Shown here: one piece after another, positions 28,805-60,596 of the stretch
Layout of the letters: each line of letters opens with the position of its first letter
How positions within the stretch are numbered: the stretch's first letter is position 1
Assembly: GCF_026410195.1 (NCBI RefSeq)
Contig: NZ_JAPMLM010000068.1
Span: 501,001 to 565,000 of the forward strand
Direction of reading: 5' to 3'
DNA length: 64,000 nucleotides
DNA from: Xanthomarina sp. F2636L
GTDB lineage: Bacteria > Bacteroidota > Bacteroidia > Flavobacteriales > Flavobacteriaceae
Program-made: the position numbers and the translations under genes
Notes under the pieces: model-generated
Told to the model about the DNA's origin: nothing
Seen by the model: the letters and a program-made list of their open reading frames with translations, nothing else
Databases searched by the model: none

Positions 28805-28820
28805 ATTATGCACGCATAAT
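28805..28820. promoter_or_regulatory. 16-base palindromic operator-like site, copy 1
   Basis: ATTATGCACGCATAAT is a perfect 7-base inverted repeat around AC. It differs by one base from the fully palindromic site at 60581-60596. It lies about 94 bases upstream of the TonB-dependent receptor start. A dyad of this size and symmetry is typical of dimeric regulators such as MarR or TetR types, but the regulator is unknown. A second, imperfect hairpin follows at 28824-28850. Confidence 0.6.
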
Positions 28821-28913
28821 TTTTATGAAAAACTTCTTAAAGTTTTCATAATATTATTTATATTGCCTAATAATAATTAACTAAATCAATTAATAATTAA
28901 CTAAAACTATAAA

Positions 28914-31667
28914 ATGAAATCAATCCTTTCACTTTTATTGTTGTTTTTTTGTGGCTTATCATATTCACAAACAACAATTTCGGGAATAGTAACTGACGAG
29001 AACAGTCAGCCAATTCCTGGAGCAAACGTTATTATAGTAGGCACATCGACTGGTACAGTTACAGATTTCGATGGAAACTACTTTTTAACTGTCAGTCAAG
29101 AACCTCCATTTACGTTACGAGCGAGTAATATCGGGTTTAGTACAGAAACTCAAGAAATTACAGCAAACAATCAAACCGTAAATTTTATTTTAAAAGAAGG
29201 AACATCTTTAGATGAAGTCGTTATTTCTGCGTCTAGAACTCCAGAACGTATTTTCGAATCGCCAGTAACGGTTGAGCGTTTTGGTTTAAAAGAAATTAAA
29301 AACACAGCTTCTGCAGATTTCTACAACGGATTAGAAAACTTAAAAGGAGTTGATGTTAATACAAACAGTTTAACCTTTAATTCTATTAACACAAGAGGGT
29401 TTGCAACTTTTGCAAATACGCGTTTTATGCAACTTGTAGATGGAATGGACAATTCTACTCCAGCCTTAAACTTCCCAATTGGAAACTTAGTAGGAATGAT
29501 TGAAACAGATGTACAAAGTGTCGAGTTACTTCCTGGAGCTGCATCTGCATTATATGGTGCAAATGCATTTAACGGAATTCTTTTCATGAGAAGTAAAAGC
29601 CCTTTCGATGTTCAAGGAATTAGTGGTTATTACAAACAAGGAATTACTAGTCAAGATGCTGCTGGAGACAACACCTATAGAGATTTAGGAGTTAGAATAG
29701 CTCATAAATTCAGTGATAAATTTGCTGCCAAAGTAAATTTTGGATGGCTAAAAGGAACCGATTGGTATGCTACAAACTATCAAGGTAAACCTGGCACTGG
29801 AGATACTAGAGCGAGTATTGGTTACGATGGGTATAACATCTACGGAGATGAAGTAGCTACTAACATACGTGCTGCTTCTGGTGGACTTGGAATTATTCCA
29901 GATGTTGTTGTAAGTAGAACAGGTTATGAAGAAAGAGATTTGACAGATTATAACGCAGAAAGTGTAAAAGCTGACTGGGGATTATACTATCGTCCTTGGG
30001 CAAACGATTTCGAAATTGCTTATGTAGGTAAGGTAGGTACAGGGTCCACCATCTATCAAGGATCTAACCGTTATAGCATTGACAATTTCTTCCAAGAACA
30101 ACATAAACTTGAATTGAGAAATAACAACTTCTTTTTAAGAGGTTATATGGTTGCTGATAAAGCTGGTGATTCTTATGACATGACTGTAACTGGGATTCAA
30201 ATTAACAGAGCTTGGAAAAGCGATGAACAATGGTTTAAAGACTATATTACCGCATTTGGTGGAGCTACTACAATAGGTGGAGCTACAGAAGATGAAGCGC
30301 ATGTAATAGCAAGAGCTGCTGCCGAAGAAGGTAGATTTGAGCCAGGTTCCCCAGGTTTTAAAAATGCTTTTAATAAAAGTATTAACGATCCAAATTTAGT
30401 AACTGGTTCTAAATTCCAAGATGAATCTAAATATTATCACGCTGATGCCAATTATAACTTTTCTCATCTTTGGGATGTTGTAGAAGTTCAAGCTGGTGGA
30501 TCATACAGACGATACGAATTAAATTCGTCTGGAACAATTTACACAGATTATGACGGAACCATTCCTTATTCTGAATTTGGAATCTATACGCAATTACAAA
30601 AACAGTTTGATTTAAATGAAAGTTTAGAATTAAAGTTAACAGGTTCTGCACGTTATGATAAATCAGAATTCTTTGATGGTTTTGTATCTCCAAGAGTTTC
30701 GGCTGGTTTAACCATTAACAGAAACCATAATGTTAGAGCTTCAGTTCAAACTGGATTTAGAAATCCAACCACTCAGGATTTATTTATAGGACTTGATGCT
30801 GGACCTTATGTATTAGTGGGTTCTGCTCCTGATAACTTAGACAGATATTCTAGAGACTATGATATTAGTGCTGCTGGTCAAATAGCATTCGGTCAACCTG
30901 CATCTATCAACCAAACGGGTGGAGCTGCTTATAGCAACTCATACTCACGTAAATCTGTTGAGAACTTTGCAGCATCTTCTAACCCTGCCGATTTAGTTAT
31001 TGGCAATCCAGATATTGTACAACCAGAACAAGTAACGTCTATGGAAGTTGGATATAGAGGAAAATTAAACCTATTAACTGTAGATTTAAGTATGTACTAC
31101 AACAAGTATAAAGACTTTATTTCTACTGAATATGTAATTTCTCCTTTATATGGAGTAGCTGGAGATAATGGCTTATCTCTTGGTGCTTTAGCTAATGGCG
31201 ATTACCAAGTTTATCAAGCTTATACGAACTCAGATATAGCTGTACAATCTTATGGTGCTGCTATTGGACTTGGGATGAAAGTCTTTAATGGCTTCGATTT
31301 AGATGGTAGTTATACCTTCGCTAAAGAAGATTTTGATCAAGATGCCAATCCTGATTTTAGAACAGGATTTAACACTCCTGAGCATAAAGTAAAACTATCT
31401 TTTGGACATACTGAAATAGTTAAAAACCTTGGCTTTAACGTTGCTTGGAAATGGAGTGATAATTACACTTGGCAAGCTTCTTTTGGAGATGGTGAGATTC
31501 CTTCTTTTCACTCTATGGATGCACAAATTAACTATACAGTTCCAAAAATTAAATCGGTATTTAAAGTAGGAGCTTCTAATGTTCTAGGGGAAGAGTACTT
31601 TACTGCCATAGGTACTGGTAATATAGGTTCTATTTATTACGTATCATGGACACTTAATAACTTATAA
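28914..31667 (+). CDS. TonB-dependent receptor with carboxypeptidase-regulatory-like domain
   Basis: This 917-residue outer-membrane receptor has a signal peptide (MKSILSLLLLFFCGLSYSQ), a CarboxypepD_reg-like domain at about 20-95 (ISGIVTDENSQPIPGANVII), a plug domain at about 105-230 (VTVERFGLKEI, GAASALYGANAFNGILFM) and a long beta barrel to the end. It is shorter than SusC-type proteins and no SusD gene is adjacent. Instead an SGNH-hydrolase lipoprotein follows after four bases, suggesting uptake of a product released by that hydrolase, perhaps an ester or lipid. The ligand is not shown by the sequence. An operator-like palindrome lies upstream. Confidence 0.93.
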   Translation: MKSILSLLLLFFCGLSYSQTTISGIVTDENSQPIPGANVIIVGTSTGTVTDFDGNYFLTVSQEPPFTLRASNIGFSTETQEITANNQTVNFILKEGTSLDEVVISASRTPERIFESPVTVERFGLKEIKNTASADFYNGLENLKGVDVNTNSLTFNSINTRGFATFANTRFMQLVDGMDNSTPALNFPIGNLVGMIETDVQSVELLPGAASALYGANAFNGILFMRSKSPFDVQGISGYYKQGITSQDAAGDNTYRDLGVRIAHKFSDKFAAKVNFGWLKGTDWYATNYQGKPGTGDTRASIGYDGYNIYGDEVATNIRAASGGLGIIPDVVVSRTGYEERDLTDYNAESVKADWGLYYRPWANDFEIAYVGKVGTGSTIYQGSNRYSIDNFFQEQHKLELRNNNFFLRGYMVADKAGDSYDMTVTGIQINRAWKSDEQWFKDYITAFGGATTIGGATEDEAHVIARAAAEEGRFEPGSPGFKNAFNKSINDPNLVTGSKFQDESKYYHADANYNFSHLWDVVEVQAGGSYRRYELNSSGTIYTDYDGTIPYSEFGIYTQLQKQFDLNESLELKLTGSARYDKSEFFDGFVSPRVSAGLTINRNHNVRASVQTGFRNPTTQDLFIGLDAGPYVLVGSAPDNLDRYSRDYDISAAGQIAFGQPASINQTGGAAYSNSYSRKSVENFAASSNPADLVIGNPDIVQPEQVTSMEVGYRGKLNLLTVDLSMYYNKYKDFISTEYVISPLYGVAGDNGLSLGALANGDYQVYQAYTNSDIAVQSYGAAIGLGMKVFNGFDLDGSYTFAKEDFDQDANPDFRTGFNTPEHKVKLSFGHTEIVKNLGFNVAWKWSDNYTWQASFGDGEIPSFHSMDAQINYTVPKIKSVFKVGASNVLGEEYFTAIGTGNIGSIYYVSWTLNNL

Positions 31668-31671
31668 AATC

Positions 31672-33204
31672 ATGAAACAACTTATTATGAAAACAAAATA
31701 TATATGGTTACTTGCTGTTCTCTTAGGTTTTACAGCTTGTAATAGCGATGATGATTCTTCATCATCTATGGACGAAGTCTTACCTCCACTTACTGCTGGA
31801 GAAGCAGACTTTTCTAAGTACGTTTCTGTAGGAGCCTCTTTCACAGCTGGATTTTCAGACAATGCACTATTTATAGCCACTCAGGAAAATTCTTTTCCTA
31901 ATTTATTATCCATGAAATTTGGCATGTTAGGAGGAGGAAGTTTTTCTCAACCACTAATGGCTGATAATATTGGTGGACTTTTATTTAACGGCACGCAAAA
32001 TCCTGATGGAAGCTTTGCTCAAAGATTATACTTTAATGGTGTAGGGCCAACACCTTTACCTGCTGCACCAACTACTGAAGCTACAACCGTTTTAGGTGGT
32101 ACGTTTAACAACATAGGTGTTCCAGGTGCTAAAAGTTTCCATTTAGGAATTAATGGTTACGGATTTGCAAACCCTTATTTTGGACGAATGGCATCAAACC
32201 CTATGGCTTCTATGGTTGAAGATGCTGTAGCGCAAAATGCTACGTTTTTCACATTATCTGAAATAGGTGGAAACGATGTCTTATCTTATGCTACTTCCGG
32301 TGGAACTGGTGTGGACCAAACTGGAAATTATAATCCAGCAACGTATGGAGGAAATGATATAACAGATCCAAATGTTTTTGCTAGTTCTTTTTCTGCTACG
32401 GTTGATGCCTTAGTAGCAAATGGTGCTAAAGGTGTAGTTACTAATGTTCCTTACATTACAAGTTTAGCACATTTTACTACAGTACCTCATAACCCAATTC
32501 CTTTAGATGCGGGAACTGCAGCAGCTGTAAATGGTGCTTATGCACCTTATAATGCTGGAATCGTTCAAGCATTTGCTTATATAGTTGCAACAACACCTAT
32601 GACACAAGAGCAAGCTGATGCGGAAATTGCAAAAAGAACTATTATGTTTGAAGCTTCTGAAACAAATGCCGTTGTTATTTTAGATGAAAACTTAACAGAT
32701 CTAACAGCACTTAACCCACAATTAGTTAATATGAGACAGGCTACTGCAAATGATTTATTTGTTTTGCCTGCATCTAGTTTTATAGGAACAGAAGCTATCC
32801 CTGGAAATCCTATGACAGTTAATGGCGTAGCTATTCCATTAGCAGATAAATGGGTGCTAACACCAGAAGAGCAACTAGCAATTAAAAATGCAACGGATGC
32901 TTATAATGTAACTATAGAATCTGTAGCTGCATCCAAAGGATTAGCCTTAGTTGATTTTAAAGGTATCTTAATACAAGCCTCTACTATTGGAATTGATTCT
33001 GGAAATTTCACTTTAACAACAGATTTAGTTAGAGGTGGATTAATAAGTTTAGATGGGGTTCATTTAACGTCTAGAGGATATTCTGTTATGGCTAATGAAA
33101 TCATGAGAGCTATTGACGCCACTTATGGTACAAACTTTGAAGCTTCAGGTAATTTTTACGATTGTGGAGATTATCCAACTAACTATAGTAAAGATTTTAG
33201 ATAA
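31672..33204 (+). CDS. SGNH/GDSL-type hydrolase lipoprotein
   Basis: This 510-residue lipoprotein has a signal ending LGFTAC (C23), followed by an acidic, serine-rich export tail (NSDDDSSSSMDE) typical of surface lipoproteins in Bacteroidota. The SGNH blocks are present: YVSVGASFTAGF with nucleophile S56, glycine in NNIGVPGAK (block II), EIGGNDVL at 197-204 (block III, N201) and DGVHLT at 461-466 with D461 and H464 (block V). It is therefore likely an active esterase or lipase. An ATG at 31687 is an alternative start. It is paired with the TonB receptor and followed by a terminator. Confidence 0.88.
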   Translation: MKQLIMKTKYIWLLAVLLGFTACNSDDDSSSSMDEVLPPLTAGEADFSKYVSVGASFTAGFSDNALFIATQENSFPNLLSMKFGMLGGGSFSQPLMADNIGGLLFNGTQNPDGSFAQRLYFNGVGPTPLPAAPTTEATTVLGGTFNNIGVPGAKSFHLGINGYGFANPYFGRMASNPMASMVEDAVAQNATFFTLSEIGGNDVLSYATSGGTGVDQTGNYNPATYGGNDITDPNVFASSFSATVDALVANGAKGVVTNVPYITSLAHFTTVPHNPIPLDAGTAAAVNGAYAPYNAGIVQAFAYIVATTPMTQEQADAEIAKRTIMFEASETNAVVILDENLTDLTALNPQLVNMRQATANDLFVLPASSFIGTEAIPGNPMTVNGVAIPLADKWVLTPEEQLAIKNATDAYNVTIESVAASKGLALVDFKGILIQASTIGIDSGNFTLTTDLVRGGLISLDGVHLTSRGYSVMANEIMRAIDATYGTNFEASGNFYDCGDYPTNYSKDFR

Positions 33205-33227
33205 TCTATATCTGAAAATATTTATAT

Positions 33228-33260
33228 AAAAAAACGCCTTCAAAAAGAAGGCGTTTTTTT
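33228..33260 (+). terminator. Terminator after the receptor/SGNH hydrolase pair
   Basis: The perfect 8-base-pair core ACGCCTTC/GAAGGCGT has a five-A loop and is flanked by A-rich and T-rich tracts that extend the stem. Seven T residues follow. It lies 24 bases after the SGNH hydrolase stop. Confidence 0.9.
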
Positions 33261-33308
33261 ATGCCTTAAAAAGCAATAAATTAGCTGTTATTTTTAAATT
33301 AAAAGATA

Positions 33309-33316
33309 TATATTTG
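33309..33316 (+). promoter_or_regulatory. Putative -7 box for atpD
   Basis: TATATTTG matches the Bacteroidota -7 consensus exactly, 86 bases upstream of atpD, which implies a leader of about 80 bases. It lies after the terminator of the previous unit. No clear TTG is found at -33. Confidence 0.55.
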
Positions 33317-33398
33317 CAGCGCGAAAAAACGCTTGTGTTTGAGTTAATAGTATAAGCCGTTTTTATATTAAGTTTTTAGAAAATTAATAAAATTATAA

Positions 33399-34910
<1,512 letters not shown>

Positions 34911-34947
34911 TCAAGCATTGCTTAACAAATTCCAAAAATATTAAATT

Positions 34948-34980
34948 CCAAATTCCAAAATAATATCCTTTGGAATTTGG
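34948..34980 (+). repeat. Perfect hairpin between atpD and atpC
   Basis: CCAAATTCCAAA (34948-34959) and TTTGGAATTTGG (34969-34980) are perfect 12-base inverted repeats around a 9-base loop. A related AAATTCCAAA-like string occurs just upstream (34927-34936). No T-tract follows, so it is not an ordinary terminator. It ends 25 bases before atpC, where it could affect mRNA processing or stability. Confidence 0.75.
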
Positions 34981-35005
34981 GATTTTAAAATTGAAATTTA
35001 AAAAT

Positions 35006-35299
35006 ATGTATTTAGAAATTGTATCACCAGAAGCAACCTTATTTAGCAGTGAAGTAGATTCAGTTGTTGTACCTGGAGTTAATGGAGAGTTTGAAATGCT
35101 AAAAAATCACGCTCCAATTGTTTCTCTTTTAAAAGAAGGTACTGTAAGAATTCATACACATACTCAAAGTCATTTAGTATTTGATGAATTACATGCAGAA
35201 ATACACCCACATAAAGACAATGATAAAATCTTACTTTTAAAAATAAAGTCAGGTACTATCGAAATGAAAGACAACAAAGTTATTATATTGGCAGACTAA
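35006..35299 (+). CDS. atpC: ATP synthase subunit epsilon, short form
   Basis: This subunit of the F1 central stalk is 97 residues from the ATG at 35006. An upstream ATG at 34970 falls inside the hairpin and adds a non-family sequence. The N-terminal beta-sandwich is visible (MYLEIVSPEATLFSSEVDSVVVPGVNGEFEMLKNHAPIVSLLKEG). The C-terminal helical hairpin found in longer epsilon subunits is absent. That hairpin inhibits ATP hydrolysis in several bacteria, so regulation here probably differs. A terminator follows. Confidence 0.93.
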   Translation: MYLEIVSPEATLFSSEVDSVVVPGVNGEFEMLKNHAPIVSLLKEGTVRIHTHTQSHLVFDELHAEIHPHKDNDKILLLKIKSGTIEMKDNKVIILAD

Positions 35300-35330
35300 A
35301 CAGTCTAACCTTTTATATACTAAACTATTA

Positions 35331-35362
35331 TAAACCTTGCAATTTGCAGGGTTTATTTTTTT
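35331..35362 (+). terminator. Terminator after atpC
   Basis: TAAACCTTGCA and TGCAGGGTTTA pair over 11 positions with one G-T pair around a short AT loop, followed by seven T residues. It lies 31 bases past the atpC stop. Confidence 0.85.
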
Positions 35363-35374
35363 ATACCATATTTG
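35343..35374 (+). promoter_or_regulatory. Putative promoter of the BNR/PKD cargo gene
   Basis: TTTG at 35343-35346 and CATATTTG at 35367-35374 are separated by 20 bases, close to the TTTG-N19/20-TAnnTTTG pattern with one mismatch. The -33 element lies within the atpC terminator. The gene starts 28 bases further on. Confidence 0.45.
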
Positions 35375-35402
35375 CTTTTAAACTACACCCAAACAATATA
35401 CT

Positions 35403-38400
35403 ATGAAATACACATTACTTTTAGCAACCCTACTTGTTACTTTCTTGTCTTTTTCGCAAGACAAATGGCCAAACATGATGTTTGACAGAGATGCCAATTT
35501 CTATGACATTCAACAAGATTTTGAAAAATACTACAATGAAAAAACTGGAGCCTCAAACAAAATCTCAAGAGGGACTGGCATAAAGCAGTATAAAAGATGG
35601 GAATATTATTGGGAAAGCCGTGTAGATGAAAACGGTAATTTTCCAAGTGAAGGGCATGTCCTAAAAGAAATGATGCGTTATAACACATTGCAAACAAACG
35701 CATTAAATAGAGGCTATACTACAAATACAGGAAACTGGGAACTTGTAGGCCCCATTGCCGTACCAGATAATGGAACTGGACAATTAAACGGAAATGGACG
35801 TGTAAATTGCATTGCATTCCACCCTACTGACCCAAATACTATTTTTGTTGGTGCGCCTTCAGGAGGTTTTTGGAAATCTACAGATAATGGAAGTACTTGG
35901 ACAGAATACTCCAATGGACTCGTTAGATTAGGAGTTTCTAGTATTGTTATTCACCCTACCAATCATGACATTCTTTATTTAGGAACAGGAGATAGAGATG
36001 CTGCAGATGCACCGGGTTATGGTGTTTATAAAAGTGTCGATGGCGGACTTACCTGGGCAAGCAGTAATGCTGGTATGGGAAATAGAACTGTTTATGAAAT
36101 CTTAATGGATCCAACCAATTCAGATGTTTTAATAGCTTCAACAAATGGAAATCGTATTTATAAAAGTACAGACGCTGGTTTAAGCTGGTCTTATGCCTCT
36201 ACTAGTTCTGCCATGAAAGATATTGCATTTAAACCAGGAGATTCTAACACTATTTATGCTTCCGGGACAACCGTTGATGTGTCTACAAATGGAGGAAATA
36301 GTTTTACGCAAGTTACCAATGGCGTTCCAAATGGAGGGGTTTATAGAATTGCTTTAGCCGTTTCTGCCGATCAGCCAGACTGGGTTTACTTAGTAGCCGG
36401 TGATGGAGGTGGTCTAGAAGGTATTTATAGATCTGAAGATAGTGGCGTTAGTTTTTCAACTAGAACTACCACTCCAAATGTTTTAGGTTATGAAACAAAT
36501 GGTTCTGATTCCAATAGTCAAGCCTGGTACGATTTAGTTATTGCAGCAGACCCAACAAATGCGAATATTATTTATACTGGAGGTATTAATATATGGAAAT
36601 CTATTGATGGGGGTGCCACCATGAATATAAATACTTATTGGGTTGGGAGCACTGGAACCATTGATGGCGTCCATGCCGATCAACATGCTTTTGAGTTTTC
36701 ACCGTTTACAAACGATGTATATAGTGGAAACGATGGTGGCGTTTACTATTCAGCAGATAATGGCGCCAATTGGAACGATATAAGCAGTGGTTTAGCCATT
36801 GCGCAAATCTATAAAATTGGGGTGTCGCAAATGTCAGAAAATTTGGTTATAAATGGCTATCAGGACAACGGAACTGCTATTAATAGAAATGCTGTTTTTA
36901 CTACCGAAATTGGTGGGGATGGTATGGAGTGTATTATTGACCCTACAGACGACTCTTATATGTATGGCGCACTTTATTATGGAGATATTAGACGTTCTAC
37001 CAATGGTGGTTTTTCATTTTCTACCATTGCAGACAATGGTACCAATGGGATTAATGAAACCGGAGCTTGGGTAACCCCTTATACATTAGATCCAAATACA
37101 CCTGCTAGAATGTTTGCTGGCTATGATAATGTTTGGAGATCGGACGATGTTAAAACCCCTGGTTCAAATTCAATTGTTTGGACACGAATTTCAAATTTTG
37201 GAGGGACTTCAAATATGGTAGATTTAGCCGTAGCTCCTTCAAATAGTAATGTTATGTATGTTTCTAGAAGTGGATCAGGAAGGTTTTATTATTCGAACAA
37301 TGCCTTATCTGCGTCTCCAACGTGGACAAATTTAACAAGTAGTTTACCTACTTCATCTTCACCAAAAGATATAGAGATAGACCCAACAGACGAGACTCAT
37401 CTATTTATAGCTTTAGGCAATGATATATATGAATCTACAGACGCAGGAAGTAGCTGGACAAATGTTTCAGGAACTCTTCCTAATATCTCATTAAACACCA
37501 TTGTTATTGATGCTTCAAGTCCAATAGAAGCTATGTATGTTGGAATGGATGTTGGGGTTTATTACAAAGATAATACGCTTGCAGATTGGGAACCATTTGA
37601 TACAGGATTAGCAAATTTAGAAATTACGGAATTGGAAATTCATTCTAATACAAGCGATTGTAATAGCAAACTATTTGCTGCTACTTATGGGCAAGGATTA
37701 TGGATGAGCGATTTAAAAGACCCAGGAAATGTGGCACCGACAGCTTGTTTTAAAGCAGATACAACACAAGGCTGTGTAAATTCCAGTTTTATGCTAACTG
37801 ATAATTCAGATTATACTCCAACTTCTTGGGCTTGGACCATTACGCCTGGAACATTCACTTATACTAATGGAACGACGGCTAATTCTCAAAACCCTGAAGT
37901 TATCTTTACTGATCCAGGAACTTACACTGTAGCCCTAACAGCTACCAATGCCAATGGAAGTAATACAAACACTAAAGTAGATTATATAAATATTGTATCT
38001 GGGTCTGCAGCTTCAGATTTTAATACGGATTTTGAAGCAGAAGCTTTATGCGGAACAGCATCTGATTGTGGTGCAACAAGCTGTAATCTCGTATCTGCTT
38101 TTTGGACTAACCTAACAAATGGAAGTGAAGACAATATTGATTGGAGAGTAGATGAAGGAGGAACATCTTCTTCAAACACGGGTCCTAATACAGACTATAA
38201 CCCAGGCACAGCCTCTGGAAATTATATTTATTTAGAATCCTCTTCATGCTATCAACAGATTGCCATTTTAGAAAGTTCTTGCATGGTTATGGATGCTGTT
38301 AATACCTACGATTTAAAATTTGCTTACCATATGTTTGGAACAGATATGGGCAGCCTGCATCTTGATATCCTTTTTAATGGCATTTGGCAAGAAAACATGA

Positions 38401-38816: not shown

Positions 38817-38833
38817 GTAACAAGTTAATCTAA

Positions 38834-38868
38834 ACAAAAAGTCCTGCATGTTGCAGGGCTTTTTGTTT
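38834..38868. terminator. Bidirectional terminator between convergent genes
   Basis: ACAAAAAGTCCTGCA and TGCAGGGCTTTTTGT pair almost perfectly around TGT, with A-rich and T-rich flanks on both sides. It can serve both the cargo gene (plus) and the symporter (minus). Confidence 0.88.
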
Positions 38869-40679: not shown

Positions 40680-40708
40680 ATGTGCTTGGTTTTCTTTAGC
40701 TGTTTAAG

Positions 40709-43210: not shown

Positions 43211-43232
43211 CCCCTCTTCAACTGAAGAGGGG
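43211..43232. repeat. GC-rich short dyad
   Basis: CCCCTCTTCA and TGAAGAGGGG are perfect 10-base inverted repeats around AC. The high GC contrasts with the AT-rich surroundings. No T-tract follows, so it is REP-like and probably not a terminator. Confidence 0.8.
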
Positions 43233-49338: not shown

Positions 49339-49398
49339 CAAACCTGCCGGCAGGCAGGAAAGTCTAGGCTTACGAACACTTATCTAAATTTATCATTC

Positions 49399-49484: not shown

Positions 49485-49582
49485 TTCATGTCAAATTTTA
49501 CGCTAAATCTTCGATAGGCCAATAATGAGAATGCTTATAAACAACTCATATAAAATAAAAAATCCTTTAGGATGCTTCTGAT

Positions 49583-51997: not shown

Positions 51998-52013
51998 GTT
52001 GGTTAATTAAAAA

Positions 52014-52736: not shown

Positions 52737-55087
52737 TATCTCACCACCATTAATTTTATAACTTTAGTTTCGAAAGATTCTAAATCGGATAACATTACTA
52801 GATAAACACCGGAAGCCACCGTGTTATTCCCTAAGTTTTTTCCATTCCAATAAGCAGTTCCTCCATCAATTTCTAAATTATATCCTTTATAACGCGAATT
52901 TGTATTAGATTGGGCTTCGGCTACCAAGTTACCTTCTATATCGGTAATTTTGACGTTCATATTTTCAGTGATCCCTCTTATTTTAACTTTTTTATCGGCC
53001 ATATTAAAATCTGGTCGAACCGGATTTGGAAAGATAAAAGCATTCTCTAGAGTAGTTTCTGTTTGAGACCCTCCAGAACCAAAGGATACTAATCCTTTAT
53101 CTGTAGCTATATATACGATTCCATTAGCTTGGTCAATAGCAACATCTACAACATCGTTAGTTGGCAAGGGCGAATTATCTTTCGTAAAATGATAAATGGT
53201 TTCTTGTCCATCTGAAGAAAAATAATATAATCCTGCACCTATAGTTGCTATCCATTTGTTGTTTGAACCATCTACCTCAATATCTGAAACATAGGTTTGA
53301 AACAAAAGTTCTTGTGGAAGACCATCGTCTAAAATAATAATGGATTGTGCCTCTATTGCTGGATCTGAAAAAAAACCTGCTGTATTATACAAGACTCTTA
53401 ATCCACTGATAGTTCCTATCCAAATTTGATTTCTTTTATCTATGGCTAAAGCTGAAACAAATGCTGTAGGCATATTTTGTTCTTCGGTGTATAAGCTTCG
53501 TAAGCTAACGCCACTCCTATTATTAAAACCTATAAGACCATTTTTATATCCACCAATCCATTTGGTGCCATTCTCATCAATTTCAATATCGCTGTAACCC
53601 CATTCTCCTTCTAAGGCGTCGGGGATTAAATCGGTAAAATCAAAGCTATTCCACTGACCAGAATTTGGATCATAAGACACTAAAGGTTTTGCTACTCTTG
53701 CTGTCATGCTCCACAAAACACCGCTTTCATCAAAAGTAGAAGCACTAACTCTAATATTTTTATAATTAGGTGCCCCTGGAATTACTAATGATCTTAATGC
53801 ACTATTACTTTCATCGTATAAAACAGTAGGAGAATCATTATTAACTTCAATTATCCCAGCAATGAACGAACTTATAAATACTTGCTGATTATTAAATGGG
53901 TTTACTGAAATTTTATTTAAATTTTTAGCTCCTAAAACACTATCGTATGGAACATTCACCCAAGCTTCATCAATAAGATGACTAAACCCACGTTCTCTAT
54001 TAGGTGCTGGATTATACGTTAAGTTATAATCCCCGAAAGTTACCCAGAGATTGTTTGGAGTTGTTTGTACTGCAAATGAATAATTTAATAAGGGACCATC
54101 TGGGTGAAGTTCTAAAAATTCAACTGGGTTTATATACTCTGTTTTTAGAAGACCATAATCTACAGTCCCTATATAAATATAATTATCTTTCTTGGTAGCA
54201 ACTGTAAATTCAGTATTATACTCTTCAGGAATAGGGATCTCTAACTCTTCTTCAAAATCACTATTATAAATATATAAAACACTATTTGTGGTTACAAAAA
54301 TTTTATTTTCTATAATTCTATAATCTAAAACAGGCGAAGGAATAATTGTTACTAATTCAACTCCAGTATCGTTTACCTTAAAAACTCTCCTATCACCTCT
54401 CATAGCATAAACATAACCTTCATCTGTAGATTGAATCCCAAGGTAGTTACGATTAGACACGACATACTCCCATTCTTGAAAATCAATAAGATTTGGATTA
54501 TCTATTAAGGCTCTTTTAAATCCCATGCCACTATAACAAGCTGTGTAAATATATCCATCTACTATTGTTGTTTGTTTTACTTTAACTTGTGTACCACCAT
54601 CCCCGATATAATACGTATCTCCAAATTCAAGTCTGGACATATCGTAAACTGAAATACCATAATCAGTAGAGATATAAACAAACTCATTATATTCTTCAAA
54701 ATAATTAATCATTTTATTACTTGGAGGAATTGTTGGTTTATCTAATATATCAACAACAGTTAAAATGTTATCATCATTATCTAATGCAATTTCAATAAGT
54801 CCATTTGAATAACCTATAATTAGCATTTCATAAGCTTCACTATAATATATAGCGGAAATTTCATCACCTGAAAGTCCATTAATAGTAGAAAGAGATTCTA
54901 TTTCGTAAGAATTTATATCATAAGAAAAAACGGCATTTTCTGCAGCTACATAAATTTTTCCGTTACCTTGGCTAACATCTTTTACATTTAAATAAGAAAA
55001 ATGTCCTTTCCAAAGTGCTGAATAATCTTGCGCTATTAGAACTATTGGACATAATAAAACAAATATTAAGAAGATTCTTTTATTCAT
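52736..55087 (-). CDS. porZ: PorZ-like T9SS surface beta-propeller protein
   Basis: From the ATG at 55087 the protein is 783 residues with a signal peptide (MNKRIFLIFVLLCPIVLIAQ); a start at 55108 would add seven residues. Two-component-regulator-type propeller repeats fill most of it (GKIYVAAENAVFSYD, YIYIGTVDYGLLKTE, GTKWIGGYKNGLIGF, NQIWIGTISGLRVLYN, NKWIATIGAGLYYF, GIVYIATDKGLVSFG). The C-terminus has a T9SS-like beta domain (AFIFPNPVRPDF to ETKVIKLMVVR). The layout matches PorZ, the T9SS attachment-complex protein that delivers anionic LPS to the sortase PorU. Linkage to recO also fits. No histidine kinase is attached. Confidence 0.82.
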   Translation of the reverse strand: MNKRIFLIFVLLCPIVLIAQDYSALWKGHFSYLNVKDVSQGNGKIYVAAENAVFSYDINSYEIESLSTINGLSGDEISAIYYSEAYEMLIIGYSNGLIEIALDNDDNILTVVDILDKPTIPPSNKMINYFEEYNEFVYISTDYGISVYDMSRLEFGDTYYIGDGGTQVKVKQTTIVDGYIYTACYSGMGFKRALIDNPNLIDFQEWEYVVSNRNYLGIQSTDEGYVYAMRGDRRVFKVNDTGVELVTIIPSPVLDYRIIENKIFVTTNSVLYIYNSDFEEELEIPIPEEYNTEFTVATKKDNYIYIGTVDYGLLKTEYINPVEFLELHPDGPLLNYSFAVQTTPNNLWVTFGDYNLTYNPAPNRERGFSHLIDEAWVNVPYDSVLGAKNLNKISVNPFNNQQVFISSFIAGIIEVNNDSPTVLYDESNSALRSLVIPGAPNYKNIRVSASTFDESGVLWSMTARVAKPLVSYDPNSGQWNSFDFTDLIPDALEGEWGYSDIEIDENGTKWIGGYKNGLIGFNNRSGVSLRSLYTEEQNMPTAFVSALAIDKRNQIWIGTISGLRVLYNTAGFFSDPAIEAQSIIILDDGLPQELLFQTYVSDIEVDGSNNKWIATIGAGLYYFSSDGQETIYHFTKDNSPLPTNDVVDVAIDQANGIVYIATDKGLVSFGSGGSQTETTLENAFIFPNPVRPDFNMADKKVKIRGITENMNVKITDIEGNLVAEAQSNTNSRYKGYNLEIDGGTAYWNGKNLGNNTVASGVYLVMLSDLESFETKVIKLMVVR

Positions 55088-55227
55088 ACTTACCTTTAAA
55101 CTTTTCAAATATATCTATATATAACGAGTTTTAGAATAAAAACATATAAATAGAATAAAAAAACATCTATTTTATTTTTCATTTAGATAAATTAAATCGT
55201 CTTGAATTATTTTGTTAATTAATCTAA

Positions 55228-55235
55228 CAAATATA
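55228..55235 (-). promoter_or_regulatory. Putative -7 box upstream of porZ
   Basis: On the minus strand this reads TATATTTG, an exact consensus match. It would give a leader of about 135 bases before the 55087 start. No -33 element is seen at standard spacing. Confidence 0.4.
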
Positions 55236-55354
55236 AGTTATCTTTAAAATTAAAATATTTTTTTGTTTTTTCGCAATGCATATTGAAGAATAAATTATTA
55301 GATTTAGCTTAATAAAGTTAAAAACCATCTTAATCTTGCATTTTGTCTGATTTA

Positions 55355-55385
55355 TTTGGTGGTTTATCGAGTTTTTATATATTTG
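55355..55385 (+). promoter_or_regulatory. Promoter of the beta-barrel gene at 55419
   Basis: TTTG at 55355-55358, a 19-base spacer and TATATTTG at 55378-55385 match both Bacteroidota promoter boxes. The start codon is 33 bases downstream. Confidence 0.75.
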
Positions 55386-55418
55386 TTTATTATTATGCTC
55401 TAATTATCGAATGCTTAT

Positions 55419-56219
55419 ATGCACTATTTGAAACAGTTATCCGTATTCTTTTTCCTGCTTATTGGAATTCAGACAAGTTTTTCTCAGTTAGGATTTTCAC
55501 ATGAAATTGGAGCCATTGTTGGTCCAGTTCAGTTTAGATCTGATTTTGGAGTACGTAATGATGAAGGTACCAATTATGGAAACTCTGGTTTTGGAATTGG
55601 AATTATTCATTATATCAATTTTGCTTATCGAGCAGACTGTAACTGCTATTCCACAGATACTTATTTTAACGATCACTTTAAATTAAGAAGTGAAATTTCT
55701 TATAATAAAACTAAACTTGATCATCACGGAAAATGGGCCGAAGGCACCAAAGTTGATGCAGCAAGATTAAGAGGGCACACTGGAGAGGCTAATAATTTTG
55801 ACATAGGGATGCAATTAGAGTACTTTCCCTTAAGCATTAGAGATTTTCAAGGTTTTTCGTACCGTTTTGCTCCATTTATAAGTTTTGGAATTCATTATAC
55901 CTCATATAATCCAAAAGCCTATACTAACTTTATGGACCCAAGTACTGGAATTGTTGATGGAAACATTAATAATGCTAGTAACTTTTGGAGTGCATGGGAG
56001 CCTGGCTCTATTGATCCAGCCCCAGGTAGTACTTGGTCCTTGGTTTCAAGTGTTGGTGTAAGATATAAATTAACTAAGCTTTCTGATTTAATGTTAGATT
56101 TAAGGTTGCAATATTATGGAAGCGATTGGATAGATGGCTTAAATCATCAATTAGAATCTAACAAATATAACGATTGGCTTATTTGGTTAAATTTTGGTTA
56201 TATCTATTATTTAGATTAG
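55419..56219 (+). CDS. Exported beta-barrel protein (THC0290_0291-like)
   Basis: This 266-residue protein has a signal peptide (YLKQLSVFFFLLIGIQTSFSQ). Its remaining sequence shows amphipathic strands and a terminal LIWLNFGYIYYLD, typical of a small outer-membrane barrel. A NFAYRADCNCYSTDTYFNDH segment with closely spaced cysteines lies near 67-86. It resembles a flavobacterial family I recall as THC0290_0291 or DUF6089-like. The function is unknown. It has its own promoter and terminator, so it is probably monocistronic. Confidence 0.75.
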   Translation: MHYLKQLSVFFFLLIGIQTSFSQLGFSHEIGAIVGPVQFRSDFGVRNDEGTNYGNSGFGIGIIHYINFAYRADCNCYSTDTYFNDHFKLRSEISYNKTKLDHHGKWAEGTKVDAARLRGHTGEANNFDIGMQLEYFPLSIRDFQGFSYRFAPFISFGIHYTSYNPKAYTNFMDPSTGIVDGNINNASNFWSAWEPGSIDPAPGSTWSLVSSVGVRYKLTKLSDLMLDLRLQYYGSDWIDGLNHQLESNKYNDWLIWLNFGYIYYLD

Positions 56220-56241
56220 ATTCAAAACATATAAAATATAT

Positions 56242-56270
56242 AAACCCCAAGAAAATTCTTGGGTTTTTTT
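56242..56270. terminator. Terminator between the barrel gene and the PLP-enzyme gene
   Basis: AAACCCCAAGAA pairs with TTCTTGGGTTT with one bulged C. Seven T residues follow on the plus strand. It lies eight bases before the end of the convergent Cys/Met-metabolism gene. Confidence 0.85.
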
Positions 56271-56277
56271 ATTCTTT

Positions 56278-57417
56278 TTAATTGATAGCTTGGTTTAAAT
56301 CTGCTATTAAGTCGTCTATATCTTCTATCCCAACACTCAATCTAATTAAAGAATCTAAAACACCTATTTTTTCACGATCTTCTTTTGGAATACTCGCATG
56401 TGTCATACTTGCTGGGTGTCCAGCTAAAGATTCTACTCCTCCTAAAGATTCAGCCAAAGTAAAAACGTTTAAATTTTCAACTATTTTAATTGCTTCTTCA
56501 AAATTATTCCCTTTAGTACTAAATGAAATCATGCCTCCATAATCTTTCATTTGTGCTTTTGCAACTGAATGATTTGGATGATTTTCAAACCCAGGCCAAT
56601 ATACCTTTTCGATCTTAGGGTGATTTGCTAAATATTCTGCAACAGCTCTTCCGTTTTCACAATGACGTTGCATTCTAACATGAAGTGTTTTAATACCTCT
56701 TAATACTAAAAAACTATCTTGAGGTCCACAAATAGCTCCACTAGCATTTTGAATAAAGTATAATTTATCTGCTAATTCTTTGTCTTTAACAACTAAAGCT
56801 CCTAGAACCACATCACTATGTCCACCTAAATATTTGGTAGCTGAATGCATAACAATATCTGCTCCTAAATCTAGGGGCTGTTGTAAATATGGTGTAGCAA
56901 AGGTGTTATCTACAGCTAAAAGCAAGTTGTGCTTTTTTGCAAGAAATCCACAAGCCTTAATATCTATAATATTCATCATGGGATTTGTTGGCGTTTCAAC
57001 CCAAATTAGCTTGGTTTTTTTATTAATATAAGCTTCAATATTCTCAGAATCTTGCATACCTATAAAGTGAAATTTAATACCAAATTTCTTATAAATTGAA
57101 GTGAATAATCTATAAGAACCACCATATAAATCACTAGTCGAGATTACTTCATCTCCTGGTTGTAATAGTTTTAAAATAGCATCAATTGCAGCCAAGCCAG
57201 AACCAAATGCCAAACCAAAATGTCCGTTTTCTATACTTGCAATAGAGTTCTCCAAAGCATGTCTTGTAGGGTTGTGAGATCTTGAATACGCATATCCTTT
57301 ATGTTCTCCAGGAGTTGTTTGTGCGTAAGTTGATGTTTGATAAATGGGAGGCATTACGGAACCGTAGGCTAAATCAGGTTCTTGACCTCCATGTATTGCT
57401 TTAGTGTTGAATTTCAT
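56278..57417 (-). CDS. Cystathionine gamma-synthase-type PLP enzyme
   Basis: This 379-residue Cys/Met-metabolism PLP enzyme is closest in pattern to cystathionine gamma-synthase (MetB) or the lyase/gamma-synthase group. It starts KFNTKAIHGGQEPDLAYGSVMPPIYQTSTY. The cofactor lysine lies in HSATKYLGGHSDVVLGALV, and the phosphate-binding region in FGSGLAAIDAILKLL and YGGSYRLF. It ends with ESLAGHPASMTHASIP and VGIEDIDDLIADL, as in family members. Synthase and lyase activities cannot be separated from sequence alone. A well-formed promoter lies upstream, and the gene is transcribed alone. Confidence 0.9.
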   Translation of the reverse strand: MKFNTKAIHGGQEPDLAYGSVMPPIYQTSTYAQTTPGEHKGYAYSRSHNPTRHALENSIASIENGHFGLAFGSGLAAIDAILKLLQPGDEVISTSDLYGGSYRLFTSIYKKFGIKFHFIGMQDSENIEAYINKKTKLIWVETPTNPMMNIIDIKACGFLAKKHNLLLAVDNTFATPYLQQPLDLGADIVMHSATKYLGGHSDVVLGALVVKDKELADKLYFIQNASGAICGPQDSFLVLRGIKTLHVRMQRHCENGRAVAEYLANHPKIEKVYWPGFENHPNHSVAKAQMKDYGGMISFSTKGNNFEEAIKIVENLNVFTLAESLGGVESLAGHPASMTHASIPKEDREKIGVLDSLIRLSVGIEDIDDLIADLNQAIN

Positions 57418-57483
57418 GTGTTAGAATTTATAAAAAACCATTAGAATTTTTCTGTTTCAGAATTACCTTCAAGAATGTTTTAA

Positions 57484-57514
57484 CAAAATTACAGTTTAAT
57501 TCGGTCTATTCAAA
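57484..57514 (-). promoter_or_regulatory. Promoter of the PLP-enzyme gene
   Basis: On the minus strand TTTG at 57514-57511, a 19-base spacer and TAATTTTG at 57491-57484 match both Bacteroidota promoter boxes. The -7 box lies 66 bases upstream of the ATG. Confidence 0.72.
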
Positions 57515-57555
57515 TGCAATAACTACCTTTAACATCATCTAAATTCTTTTGTGCT

Positions 57556-58272
57556 ATGCGCTATAAAATATTTATTTATGCCATTATTATTTCTTTAATT
57601 TCACAAACTTGTAAAGAGGAAAAAACGGTAGAATTTAAAGAAATTTCCAAAACAACAAATACCAATACTCTAGTTGAAATTAACATCCCTGAGGCCTCAG
57701 GAAATGATGATATTTCTAAAGCGATTAATCACTCTATTGAGCAACATATTATTGCGTCTTTAAATGTTAAAGATGCTAATAACCATTTGCCAAAAACCAT
57801 TGAAGAAAGCATTGATGTCTTTAATAACGAATACACAACGTTTAAAAATGACTTTTCTGATAGTGTTCTTTCTTGGGAAGCCCAAATTGATGGCGAAGTG
57901 ATGTATCAATCGCCTGATATTATTTCCATGGCAATTACAACTTATCTTAATACTGGCGGAGCTCATGGTAATTTAAGCATCTCGTTTTTAAATTTTAATG
58001 CCCAAACAGGAAAGCAACTAAAAAATGAAGATTTACTAGAGGATCATCTAGCTTTTATAGAGATAGCTAAAACTTATTTTGACGAAGAAATAGCCGACAA
58101 AAAAGAACTATACTTTGAACCTGAAAACTTTAAACTACCTGAGAACATAGGCTTTAGTGAGGAAGGTGTTATCTTACTTTACAATACCTACGAAATAGCT
58201 CCTTACTCCTCTGGAATTACCGAAATACAGATTCCTTGGCAAGATTTACAAACTTCTTTAAATTATTTATAA
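57556..58272 (+). CDS. DUF4163/DUF3298 lipoprotein-like protein
   Basis: This 238-residue protein starts with a hydrophobic leader ending SLISQTC, a plausible lipobox with the cysteine at residue 19. The body fits the PdaC/RsiV-type DUF4163 plus DUF3298 pair: AQIDGEVMYQSPDIISMAITTYLNTGGAHGNLSISFLNFNAQTGKQL, then EEGVILLYNTYEIAPYSSGITEIQIPW. Family members include deacetylase-associated and lysozyme-binding proteins, but no catalytic residues were assigned here. It overlaps the convergent DinB gene by six bases. Confidence 0.8.
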   Translation: MRYKIFIYAIIISLISQTCKEEKTVEFKEISKTTNTNTLVEINIPEASGNDDISKAINHSIEQHIIASLNVKDANNHLPKTIEESIDVFNNEYTTFKNDFSDSVLSWEAQIDGEVMYQSPDIISMAITTYLNTGGAHGNLSISFLNFNAQTGKQLKNEDLLEDHLAFIEIAKTYFDEEIADKKELYFEPENFKLPENIGFSEEGVILLYNTYEIAPYSSGITEIQIPWQDLQTSLNYL

Positions 58273-58722
58273 AGATTTTTTTAAAGCCAAAATATACCCT
58301 AAATGAATGCCTTCATGAAAGTTATTGAAATCGATGGCTTTTTCCACATTAGTTAAAACACTTTTAGTGGTAACCGTATATTCCTTGTAATCTTTAAATA
58401 GTTTGTTATTATAATCTTCTTTTGTTTTTTCAATGGTAGAAAACAACAAGTCCTTTATAATATCTACTTCGGCTTGGGTAACATCTCTCTCCACTTTAGT
58501 TCCTTTTCGATACATTTCAACTAAATCATCCGATAAAAGCATTGGCAATCCAGACATATTATAAACCAATAATTGTTGTGTAACAATGGTGTGAGCCACA
58601 TTCCAGATGATATTATTACTAAAACCTTTAGGCACTTTATTAAGTTGTTCTAAACTAAAAGTTTCTAGAAAATTTTTAAAAATGACTCTATTTTTTAATG
58701 TAATATCGAAAGCCCATTCCAT
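58267..58722 (-). CDS. DinB family protein
   Basis: This 151-residue protein fits the DinB/YfiT four-helix metal-binding fold. IIWNVAHTIVTQQ provides one histidine, and NNFHEGIHLGYILALKK near the C-terminus provides the other two of the usual metal triad. Several members act as thiol S-transferases with small thiols such as bacillithiol, which some Bacteroidota make, but the substrate here is unknown. The gene faces the DUF3298 gene convergently. Confidence 0.87.
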   Translation of the reverse strand: MEWAFDITLKNRVIFKNFLETFSLEQLNKVPKGFSNNIIWNVAHTIVTQQLLVYNMSGLPMLLSDDLVEMYRKGTKVERDVTQAEVDIIKDLLFSTIEKTKEDYNNKLFKDYKEYTVTTKSVLTNVEKAIDFNNFHEGIHLGYILALKKSL

Positions 58723-58810
58723 ATTTATAAGTTTTGCTTAAAAATAATTATTTTTCATTAAAAATGGACGTTATTTGTAGGTAGAAATTTTTTGTTTAAT
58801 GTATTAAATA

Positions 58811-58824
58811 CTCACTGTAGTGAG
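58811..58824. promoter_or_regulatory. Dyad just upstream of the ArsC-like gene
   Basis: CTCAC and GTGAG flank TGTA, ending seven bases before the ATG at 58831. It could be a weak operator or a translation-affecting hairpin. The evidence is symmetry only. Confidence 0.35.
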
Positions 58825-58830
58825 CATCTT

Positions 58831-59184
58831 ATGAAAAAAATTTACTACTTAAAAACTTGTAGTACTTGTTCACGAATATTAAAAGAATGGGATTTACCTT
58901 CAGACTTTATATTACAAGACATAAAAAATGAAGAAATTACTGTAAAACAACTAGAAGAAATGAAATCTCTTGCAGGTTCTTACGAAGCTCTTTTTAGTAA
59001 ACGCGCCAAGCTTTACAAAGAGATGGATTTAAAAAATCAAGTTTTAAAAGAAGCAGATTACAAGCAATATTTATTAGAACATTATACCTTTTTAAGTCGT
59101 CCCGTACTCCTATTAAACAATCAAATATTTATTGGTAATTCTAAAAAAGTAACGCAACAAGCCAAAGAAGCCATACATGGATAA
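58831..59184 (+). CDS. ArsC/Spx family thioredoxin-fold protein
   Basis: From the ATG at 58831 the protein is 117 residues, the normal ArsC/Spx length; a frame from 58792 adds 13 unrelated residues. It begins MKKIYYLKTCSTCSRILKEW with a CxxC near residues 10-13 and ends with SRPVLLLNNQIFIGNSKKV, the conserved cis-proline block. The family includes arsenate reductase and Spx-type regulators; neither role can be assigned. Its stop overlaps the next gene by eight bases. Confidence 0.83.
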   Translation: MKKIYYLKTCSTCSRILKEWDLPSDFILQDIKNEEITVKQLEEMKSLAGSYEALFSKRAKLYKEMDLKNQVLKEADYKQYLLEHYTFLSRPVLLLNNQIFIGNSKKVTQQAKEAIHG

Positions 59185-60073
59185 AACCAGGGTTCTAGCT
59201 CTTTTTGCTGTAATTATGGTCCATGTTATTTATGGACTCACCTTTACATTTGCTAACGATGTTTTAGCAGAAGGTTATGTAAAACCTTATGGATTTCTAG
59301 TAATTCGTGTGGTAGGAGCTGCTATTTTATTTTGGATTTTTAGTTTGTTTACTCCCAAACAACACATTGAACCTAAAGATTATCTCACCATCTTTTTTGC
59401 ATCGGTTTTTGGGCTTGCCTTAAACTTCTTAACCTTTTTTAAAGGTTTAGAATTTACAACTCCTATTCATGCTTCGGTAATTATGACTGTGGTTCCTATT
59501 GTAGTTCTTGTCTTGTCTGCATTCTACTTAAAAGAAAAAATATCTGGTCTAAAAATTATTGGTGTTTTACTTGGTTTTTCTGGAGCTATTGTTCTCTCAG
59601 TTTATGGAAAATCGTCACATCCAACAGATCATATTCTTTTTGGAAATCTTTTAATTTTTATAAATGCCGTGTCTTACAGTATTTATCTAATCATTATTAA
59701 AAAATTAACCAATAAATACCATCCATTTACTTTTATAAGATGGTTATTTTTATTTGGTTCAATTTTAGTTTTACCTTTTGGTTTTAGCGAATTTTCACAG
59801 GTAGAATGGACATCCTTTACCCCATATATTATGTTTTCAGTTTTGTTTGTGGTAGTTGGAGCCACCTTTGGAACCTATCTTTTAAACCCTATAGCTTTAA
59901 GGCATTTAAAAGCTTCTACTGTAAGTACTTTTTTATACATCCAACCTGTTATAGCTAGTGTTTTTGCACTATTTATGGGAAGTGACTCCATAGATTTGGT
60001 TAAGGTAATTGCAGCCATTTTAATTTTTTCTGGCGTATATTTGGTCACTAAAAAACCGAAACTATACAGTTAA
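59177..60073 (+). CDS. EamA/DMT family transporter
   Basis: This 298-residue membrane protein has ten hydrophobic helices in two homologous five-helix halves, the drug/metabolite transporter fold. The EamA repeats are visible (VIRVVGAAILFWIFSLF, PIHASVIMTVVPIVVLVLSAFYLKEKIS and, in the second half, LKASTVSTFLYIQPVIASVFALFMGSD). The substrate is unknown. It overlaps the ArsC-like gene by eight bases, so they are co-transcribed. Its end overlaps the convergent thioesterase by 12 bases. Confidence 0.9.
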   Translation: MDKTRVLALFAVIMVHVIYGLTFTFANDVLAEGYVKPYGFLVIRVVGAAILFWIFSLFTPKQHIEPKDYLTIFFASVFGLALNFLTFFKGLEFTTPIHASVIMTVVPIVVLVLSAFYLKEKISGLKIIGVLLGFSGAIVLSVYGKSSHPTDHILFGNLLIFINAVSYSIYLIIIKKLTNKYHPFTFIRWLFLFGSILVLPFGFSEFSQVEWTSFTPYIMFSVLFVVVGATFGTYLLNPIALRHLKASTVSTFLYIQPVIASVFALFMGSDSIDLVKVIAAILIFSGVYLVTKKPKLYS

Positions 60074-60541
60074 ATGCACAGGTTTTCTTCCAGAGGTTCT
60101 TGTATCCTCCTTAGTTAATGTTTTGTAATCTTTCGTTTTTGGAAATGTCTTTTCTTTTTCTAATAAAACTTCTGGAAGATCCGTTAATTTTCTTGTAGAC
60201 AGATCAATCCAGGCACCAAACATATCGCAACTAGCTATATTTTCACCTTTATGGTTATAAAAATTGTGTTCGAATTTAAAAAACATGCCATCTTCACTTA
60301 AACCAGAAACCTCTAAACTTACTGTTATAGGCTGTCCCATAAAAGCTTCTTTAAAGTAATACATGTGCTCGTAAAAAACTACAGGTCCTAAATTATATTC
60401 TGAAAGCGTTTTCATATTAAACCCATTTTCAATTAAAAAAGCCATTCTGGTATGACTCATGAAATTGGTGTAGGCACTATTTGCCAAGTGTCTGTTAGCA
60501 TCCACATCGCTCCATCTAATTTCAAACTGTTTTGTATACAT
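60062..60541 (-). CDS. Acyl-CoA thioesterase (hotdog fold)
   Basis: This 159-residue protein matches the 4HBT/YbgC-type hotdog thioesterases, which release CoA from acyl-CoAs. The active-site region is FEIRWSDVDANRHLANSAYTNFMSHTRM, with the catalytic-type aspartate in SDVDANRH. The LEVSGLSEDGMFFKFEHNFYN strand is also typical. The acyl chain preference is unknown. Its predicted promoter carries a 16-base palindrome, suggesting control by a dimeric regulator. A nearly identical palindrome lies upstream of the TonB receptor at 28914. Confidence 0.9.
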   Translation of the reverse strand: MYTKQFEIRWSDVDANRHLANSAYTNFMSHTRMAFLIENGFNMKTLSEYNLGPVVFYEHMYYFKEAFMGQPITVSLEVSGLSEDGMFFKFEHNFYNHKGENIASCDMFGAWIDLSTRKLTDLPEVLLEKEKTFPKTKDYKTLTKEDTRTSGRKPVHLTV

Positions 60542-60563
60542 CTTATATTCAATTTTAAAAAAA

Positions 60564-60571
60564 CAAACTTA
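60564..60571 (-). promoter_or_regulatory. Putative -7 box for the thioesterase
   Basis: On the minus strand this reads TAAGTTTG, an exact -7 match, 23 bases upstream of the start at 60541. The 60581-60596 palindrome lies just upstream, where RNA polymerase would contact the -33 region. Confidence 0.6.
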
Positions 60572-60580
60572 CAGATTTTT

Positions 60581-60596
60581 ATTATGCATGCATAAT
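60581..60596. promoter_or_regulatory. 16-base palindromic operator-like site, copy 2
   Basis: ATTATGCATGCATAAT is a perfect dyad. It lies between the -7 and -33 positions of the thioesterase promoter, which suggests repression, and roughly 47-62 bases upstream of the inferred yicC start point. It differs by one base from the site at 28805-28820. Confidence 0.65.

Follow-up and report, generated by a model that had tools for sequence, protein, structure and literature searches.

A palindromic site, and candidate MarR operator, shared by fatty-acid genes in Xanthomarina sp. F2636L and its relatives

Two palindromes and the genes beside them

The analysed stretch of DNA, called the window below, comprises 64,000 nucleotides of Xanthomarina sp. 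F2636L (NCBI RefSeq assembly GCF_026410195.1, contig NZ_JAPMLM010000068.1, positions 501,001 to 565,000 of the forward strand). It carries two nearly identical 16-base palindromes, ATTATGCACGCATAAT and ATTATGCATGCATAAT, both confirmed by direct sequence check at the positions given in a first-pass annotation of the window (Table 1). As that annotation had it, the first lies upstream of a TonB-dependent receptor gene followed by an SGNH-hydrolase lipoprotein gene, and the second lies in the promoter of an acyl-CoA thioesterase gene, where the minus-strand box was found at the predicted place. On the comparisons reported here, the palindromes are very likely operators of one MarR-family repressor that would control genes of fatty-acid uptake and breakdown; very probably, this regulator switches fatty-acid genes in marine Flavobacteriaceae and their relatives.

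Table 1. Features of the window and core sites of the genome (score, weight-matrix score)
Feature	Position in window	Strand	Remarks
Operator dyad ATTATGCACGCATAAT, core site (d)	28805..28820	.	Upstream of TonB-dependent receptor, then SGNH-like lipoprotein gene; score 25.6; dyad at relatives' receptor orthologues
TonB-dependent receptor	28914..31667	+	PF00593, PF07715, CarbopepD_reg_2 N-terminal domain
SGNH/GDSL-like hydrolase	31672..33204	+	4 bp past receptor gene; lipobox-like N-terminus (by eye)
4HBT acyl-CoA thioesterase (YbgC/FadM-like)	60062..60541	-	PF13279; upstream dyad in 9/16 orthologues
Thioesterase -7 promoter box TAAGTTTG	60564..60571	-	Starts 9 bp after operator; operator then in -33/-7 spacer
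24-bp perfect palindrome around dyad ATTATGCATGCATAAT (60581-60596), core site (e)	60577..60600	.	Palindrome scan; score 31.9; 40 bp before 4HBT thioesterase
yicC endoribonuclease gene, divergent	60658..61515	+	Bystander candidate
Core site (a)			38 bp before 152-aa MarR gene, then fadB-, fadA- and fadE-like genes; fadD-like acyl-CoA ligase adjoins
Core site (b)			Between divergent etfB-like and pyruvate-dehydrogenase-E1-beta-like genes
Core site (c)			Before nitronate-monooxygenase/FabK-like gene
Core site (f)			Between rpmF-like and fabH-like genes; weak, score 15.1; not counted as established

Sites were scored with a weight matrix that summarises the marR operators found in 80 relatives. 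The two dyads were the only positions of the window with a score above 0, and the best score among 200 mononucleotide shuffles of the window was 16.6. The 24-bp palindrome was the longest spacer-free perfect palindrome found in a scan of the window. At up to three mismatches the window count was ordinary (3 found against 1.75 expected).

The thioesterase matched PF13279 with 75.2 bits (cut-off 25.5) and stayed below the cut-off of the YbgC/FadM subfamily model (40.1 against 68.7). For the SGNH-like protein, Pfam Lipase_GDSL matches fell below the gathering scores (21.7 against 23.6 and 20.8 against 32.9), and a structure database search gave no credible solved relative; the blocks GASF, GVPG, GGND and DGVH, which we take to be the catalytic Ser/Gly/Asn/His blocks of SGNH hydrolases, were picked out by eye. 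SGNH homologues were present in 18 of 22 genomes. One relative (G163) carries an SGNH-like gene, 41 percent identical and possibly a paralogue, whose site is separate from that of the receptor (L289, L290); in this single case the SGNH gene is therefore tied to the regulon independently of the receptor. In another relative, G019, which lacks an SGNH match, a gene of the FadL family (L181) has a site 195 bp upstream, again a single case.

Sites, regulator and target genes across genomes

The whole genome (3.37 Mb in 75 contigs) contained four exact copies of ATTATGCRYGCATAAT against ~0.01 expected from the rounded base composition, ~370 times above expectation. These four are the two window dyads and the sites in front of the MarR gene and the nitronate-monooxygenase-like gene. 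The slightly wider pattern AYTATGCRYGCATART, hereafter the strict dyad, also occurred four times, and its reversed pattern was absent. With two mismatches ATTATGCRYGCATAAT gave 7 sites against 5 for reversed controls; because the excess vanishes at this level, the signal is confined to near-perfect dyads. The core TATGCRYGCATA was found exactly six times, always between genes (6/6; one copy sits 2 bp after an rpmF-like stop codon), and a further seven times with one mismatch, six of these inside open reading frames (ORFs) of at least 100 amino acids (aa) (Fisher p 0.005 against exact cores). The combined count at one mismatch was ordinary (13, with 10 in the reversed control). Looser patterns, with two or three mismatches, were rejected as a source of further regulon members, given their chance-level counts and the position of six of the seven one-mismatch cores in ORFs. 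The first-pass annotation had named random scatter inside coding regions as evidence that would speak against a shared operator; the exact genome sites all lie outside coding regions.

Among the genes behind the core sites, the nitronate-monooxygenase/FabK-like product reached the threshold of the Pfam NMO model and fell far below the cut-off of the FabK model. The names EtfB, EtfA, PdhB, FabH, FadA and rpmF come from sequence reading without a family search. In the locus stretch of the genome's own fadD gene (L008), the weight matrix found no site above 0 apart from the marR site.

A shared regulator of MarR or TetR type, encoded outside the window, carrying its own site and linking lipid uptake with acyl-CoA metabolism, had been predicted. 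A candidate that fits lies on contig C54 (G000:C54, about 211656-212111), where a MarR gene preceded by the same dyad heads a fadB-fadA-fadE operon, that is, a beta-oxidation operon, beside fadD. Its product matched PF01047 (E 3.7e-11, 43.2 bits against a cut-off of 24.6); at E 0.001 only MarR-type or related winged-helix models matched, with no GntR and no TetR domain. The structure predicted for L025, a relative 96 percent identical to it (predicted local distance difference test score 85.5), has a MarR fold, and its top PDB matches were MarR proteins such as HcaR, MexR, PcaV, SlyA-DNA and CouR-DNA, with template-modelling scores, normalised by query, of up to 0.79. Across 17 diverse members, 19 of the 34 invariant columns fall in the winged-helix part (residues 49-93). 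A copy of the regulator within the window was ruled out by the MarR profile, which had its sole match in the genome on C54 (other regulators were not sought ORF by ORF).

Conservation was followed in the best 80 of 567 candidate relatives, identified by their titles as Flavobacteriaceae genera, as Flavobacteriales or as Bacteroidetes/Bacteroidia. Each of the 80 carries a dyad at most 400 bp upstream of marR, which keeps all 14 specified positions of the consensus in 36 relatives, 13 in 33 and 12 in 11. Same-strand genes around marR in the 80 loci, some of which end early, included fadB in 80, fadA in 78, fadD in 77 and fadE in 74.

Co-occurrence was examined in two genome sets that share G000 and G022, a closer one of 31 genomes and one of 158 genomes across the phylum. 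A genome was counted as MarR+ when a MarR profile matched at E up to 1e-20. In the phylum set the profile matched 29 genomes, and the strict dyad was present in 18/29 MarR+ genomes versus 0/129 MarR- genomes, a class that depends on the E-value chosen (Fisher p 1.6e-16). FadB was found in 86 of the 158 genomes, including all 29 with MarR; within FadB+ genomes the strict dyad occurred in 18/29 with MarR versus 0/57 without (p 2.3e-11). These p-values overstate certainty, the genomes being related; the genomes of the MarR, dyad and FadB scans are the same as far as handles were listed. Where a MarR+ phylum genome lacks a strict site (11 genomes), marR is still preceded by a drifted dyad, which keeps 11 to 13 of the 14 positions. 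At 11/14 or better, a dyad upstream of marR was seen in 27 of the 29 genomes by direct reading and in one by coordinates (G082, flank cut); one, G128, has none. In the closer set, the strict pattern was present in 22/24 MarR+ versus 1/7 MarR- genomes, and an upstream dyad accompanied all 24 MarR genes. A single weight-matrix pass recovered 21 of them (score at least 16.7, the lowest being G021); G000, G022 and G019 were read separately, the last from site inspection, its weight-matrix stretch being cut. The reversed-pattern control appeared in 0/31 closer genomes and 1/158 phylum genomes.

In total 96 sites in the genome itself and its relatives were inspected; the majority stand in front of marR, of etfBA, of the TonB-receptor/SGNH pair or of another fatty-acid gene. 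The 64 strict sites of the closer set, which includes the own genome, come from 23 of its genomes and stand before marR (21), etfB (16), the orthologous TonB receptor (10), a nitronate-monooxygenase-like gene (6) and the thioesterase (2). Single cases are genes for a beta-ketoacyl-ACP synthase III (KAS III)-like protein, a wax-ester synthase/diacylglycerol acyltransferase (DGAT), FadL/OMPP1 (PF03349), an EtfD-like iron-sulfur protein and a distant TonB receptor. The phylum set added 46 sites, of which 14 beside marR were left out. The other 32 precede etfB (15), the TonB receptor (4, one a 67-aa fragment) and a distant TonB receptor (2), with two unclear; one each precedes genes for nitronate-monooxygenase-like, FadD, KAS III-like, lone SGNH-like, FadH-like, short-chain dehydrogenase, acyl-CoA dehydrogenase, EtfD-like and outer-membrane barrel proteins. 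These targets were named mostly by BLAST against the proteins of the own genome and in ten other cases by Pfam; the FadH-like label is our assumption from domain composition. Sites thus precede several separate fatty-acid degradation operons, often marR-fad and etfBA, once each fadD, FadH-like and acyl-CoA dehydrogenase genes, and twice EtfD-like genes. Ten EtfD-like homologues were searched, with a site upstream in two (G128, G011) and none in eight, including that of the own genome, where no site lies in the 250 bp upstream and another ORF closely precedes the gene. The wax-ester synthase/diacylglycerol acyltransferase gene belongs to G001 (L165), hinting at co-control of lipid storage.

Promoter geometry and competing explanations

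In the 80 marR promoters, a -7 box of the form TAnnTTTG follows the dyad, starting 9 bp after it in 56 cases, 10 bp in 17 and 1 bp in 5; two promoters lack it. A box within 1-10 bp at 78/80 promoters would put a bound dimer on the -33 and -7 elements of the Bacteroidota promoter consensus or between them. In 4/5 genomes of family f14 the last base of the -7 box is also the first of the dyad. Of the six nitronate-monooxygenase-like promoters in the alignment, five have the box 9 bp past the site and one has it 6 bp past, and in the thioesterase promoters of G008 and G018 the site comes after a -7-like TATTTTTG, not before it. Steric repression would lead one to expect just this, an overlap with the core promoter that persists while the exact place of the site shifts.

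The receptor and etfB promoters differ. At 8 of 11 aligned receptor promoters, a -7-like TATATTGC starts 37-39 bp after the site, and the same eight have TTGTTAAA at most 25 bp before the operator (window 28780-28900; L156, L153, L164, L166, L172, L134, L150). In 16 aligned etfB promoters, a TAnnTT[T/C]G box lies 19-21 bp after the site in 12, 9 bp in one and 39 bp in one, and is absent in two. A repressor position, proposed in the first-pass annotation for the thioesterase, is clear at the thioesterase, marR and nitronate-monooxygenase-like promoters and not clear at that of the receptor.

In the proposed mechanism, a MarR dimer would bind the dyad A[T/C]TATGC[A/G][C/T]GCATA[A/G]T and cover the core promoter. 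Bound MarR would block its own marR-fadB-fadA-fadE operon, the thioesterase gene and the nitronate-monooxygenase/FabK-like gene; for etfBA and the uptake pair of TonB receptor and SGNH hydrolase, the block would work likewise or in a related way. Release would follow the arrival of fatty acids, through the binding to MarR of an activated form, most likely long-chain acyl-CoA, or possibly of the free acid. We infer repression and an acyl-CoA ligand from the operon content, the ligands of FadR and PsrA, and the example of FabT.

Several observations weigh against this reading. Since the -7-like elements lie 37-39 bp (8/11) and 19-21 bp (12/16) away, the site falls outside the -33/-7 spacer at those receptor and etfB promoters, where control may run in either direction. 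Conservation at orthologous promoters, proposed as a check, was borne out at the receptor orthologues (10 of the 64 strict sites) and in part at the thioesterase: of 16 orthologues from 20 genomes, nine (G000, G002, G003, G004, G005, G007, G008, G014, G018; scores 13.5 to 31.9) keep the dyad, G005 with only 13.5, and seven have no clear dyad. Four of the 64 strict sites have no clear link, standing before a zinc-type oxidoreductase (L137), an aminotransferase (L141) and at L127 and L128 of G028; two phylum-set sites (L273, L301) precede genes without an obvious one. Five of the 11 drifted marR dyads match only 11 of 14 positions, close to the best chance hits, which reached 10 in G128. That genome, whose marR and fadB lie on separate contigs, has MarR without an upstream dyad; of the three sites that it has in other places, two stand in front of acyl-CoA-dehydrogenase and EtfD-like genes. 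The 1.9-Mb genome G028 has two exact strict dyads and no MarR at E 1e-20, and the neighbours have no evident fatty-acid role; these dyads are due to chance or serve some other protein that recognises the sequence. The fabH-side core of the own genome scores within the shuffle range, lies 163 bp upstream and adjoins a terminator-like hairpin, and was set aside as a regulon site.

The box distances speak for an unlikely alternative, in which MarR represses at marR, the thioesterase and the nitronate-monooxygenase-like gene and activates at the TonB receptor, and perhaps at etfB, where most boxes are TAnnTTCG-like, by binding further upstream; TTGTTAAA, close upstream of the same eight receptor sites, would nevertheless permit another promoter with the site inside it. 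That another regulator uses the dyad as its operator, with marR just one target through its place in the beta-oxidation operon, is improbable. Conservation footprinting is silent on which protein binds, and G028 has sites without MarR; among FadB+ genomes, however, strict sites occur only together with MarR (no systematic search for other co-occurring regulators was made). A perfect 16-bp dyad in its own promoter suits a MarR dimer; also to be set against this alternative is the share of invariant columns in the winged-helix part. A coincidence of two palindromes without shared function has next to no probability: counts do reach chance once two or three mismatches are allowed, but the exact sites exceed expectation by far, the reversed controls are empty in 31 genomes, and conservation of the sites upstream of orthologues refutes this reading.

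Some other features were also noted. The yicC gene is probably a bystander at the dyad at 60581, and control of it from there was disfavoured: G018, G014 and G008 keep the thioesterase dyad, and the yicC start is not in the upstream stretch printed for them. An arylsulfotransferase-like gene (PF14269, window 27347-28660) is divergent to the receptor across the operator, with the same place in four relatives (L156, L164, L166, L172). In many relatives etfB and the pyruvate dehydrogenase E1-beta-like gene diverge across the operator (L129, L130, L145, L157 and others), so that the site might bear on the control of pyruvate dehydrogenase as well. A GC-rich inverted repeat, CCCCTCTTCAACTGAAGAGGGG, at window 43211-43232 is perhaps a terminator.

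Relation to known fatty-acid regulators

On the best reading of the sequences, the MarR protein is a functional counterpart of FadR built from another protein family. It is possible, though on balance doubtful, that fatty-acid catabolism in much of its class answers to it as master regulator and that its regulon reveals TonB-powered uptake of fatty acids or lipid esters in Flavobacteriaceae. If so, acyl chains would be freed and brought into the cell by the TonB receptor together with a surface SGNH esterase, as a replacement for FadL or an addition to it. A compact regulon with one operator also suggests functions for the receptor/SGNH pair and for the nitronate-monooxygenase-like and EtfD-like proteins. 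Among the matches listed from open-licence PubMed Central titles and starts of abstracts (preprints and most subscription journals lie outside), there was no description of a MarR protein that regulates fatty-acid degradation in Bacteroidota, or of this operator; regulators of this pathway are catalogued for Proteobacteria (PMC5343134), and none for Bacteroidota was among those matches.

The EtfD-like target of G128 (L300) matches the Mycobacterium smegmatis EtfD structure 9ojn at E 1.2e-42. In PMC13083937, M. smegmatis EtfD (PDB 9ojn) is proposed to pass electrons from the electron transfer flavoprotein to menaquinone. The Bacteroidota protein has 431 aa versus 1042 aa, and the own-genome homologue, as noted, lacks a site.

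CoA thioesters or aromatic acids serve as signals for some MarR proteins, and CouR, HcaR and PcaV control aromatic-acid catabolism. The regulator described here shares their MarR fold; all three were among the solved matches by sequence or fold, with fold-search identities of 15-22 percent. FadR controls the FadM thioesterase; here a thioesterase gene bears the site, and in one relative a gene of the FadL family does too. The fatty-acid degradation regulators of Proteobacteria include FadR of the GntR family and PsrA and FadP of the TetR family (PMC5343134). Like them, the MarR protein would be a dedicated regulator over dispersed fatty-acid degradation genes, apparently filling a role held elsewhere by GntR and TetR proteins. 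Unlike them, it is of the MarR family, comes from another phylum and would read another operator, and the gene usually targeted for the outer membrane is that of a TonB receptor, paired with an SGNH lipoprotein, and not FadL.

A parallel in gene order is FabT of the Lactobacillales, which, according to PMC13046290, is a MarR repressor encoded by the first gene of its own fatty-acid operon and autoregulated; it represses fatty-acid synthesis, and acyl-ACP strengthens its binding to the operator. Here, too, a MarR gene heads a fatty-acid operon that bears its predicted operator. The operon, however, is the degradative fadB-fadA-fadE and not one of synthesis, and the ligand would be expected to release MarR rather than to strengthen its binding.

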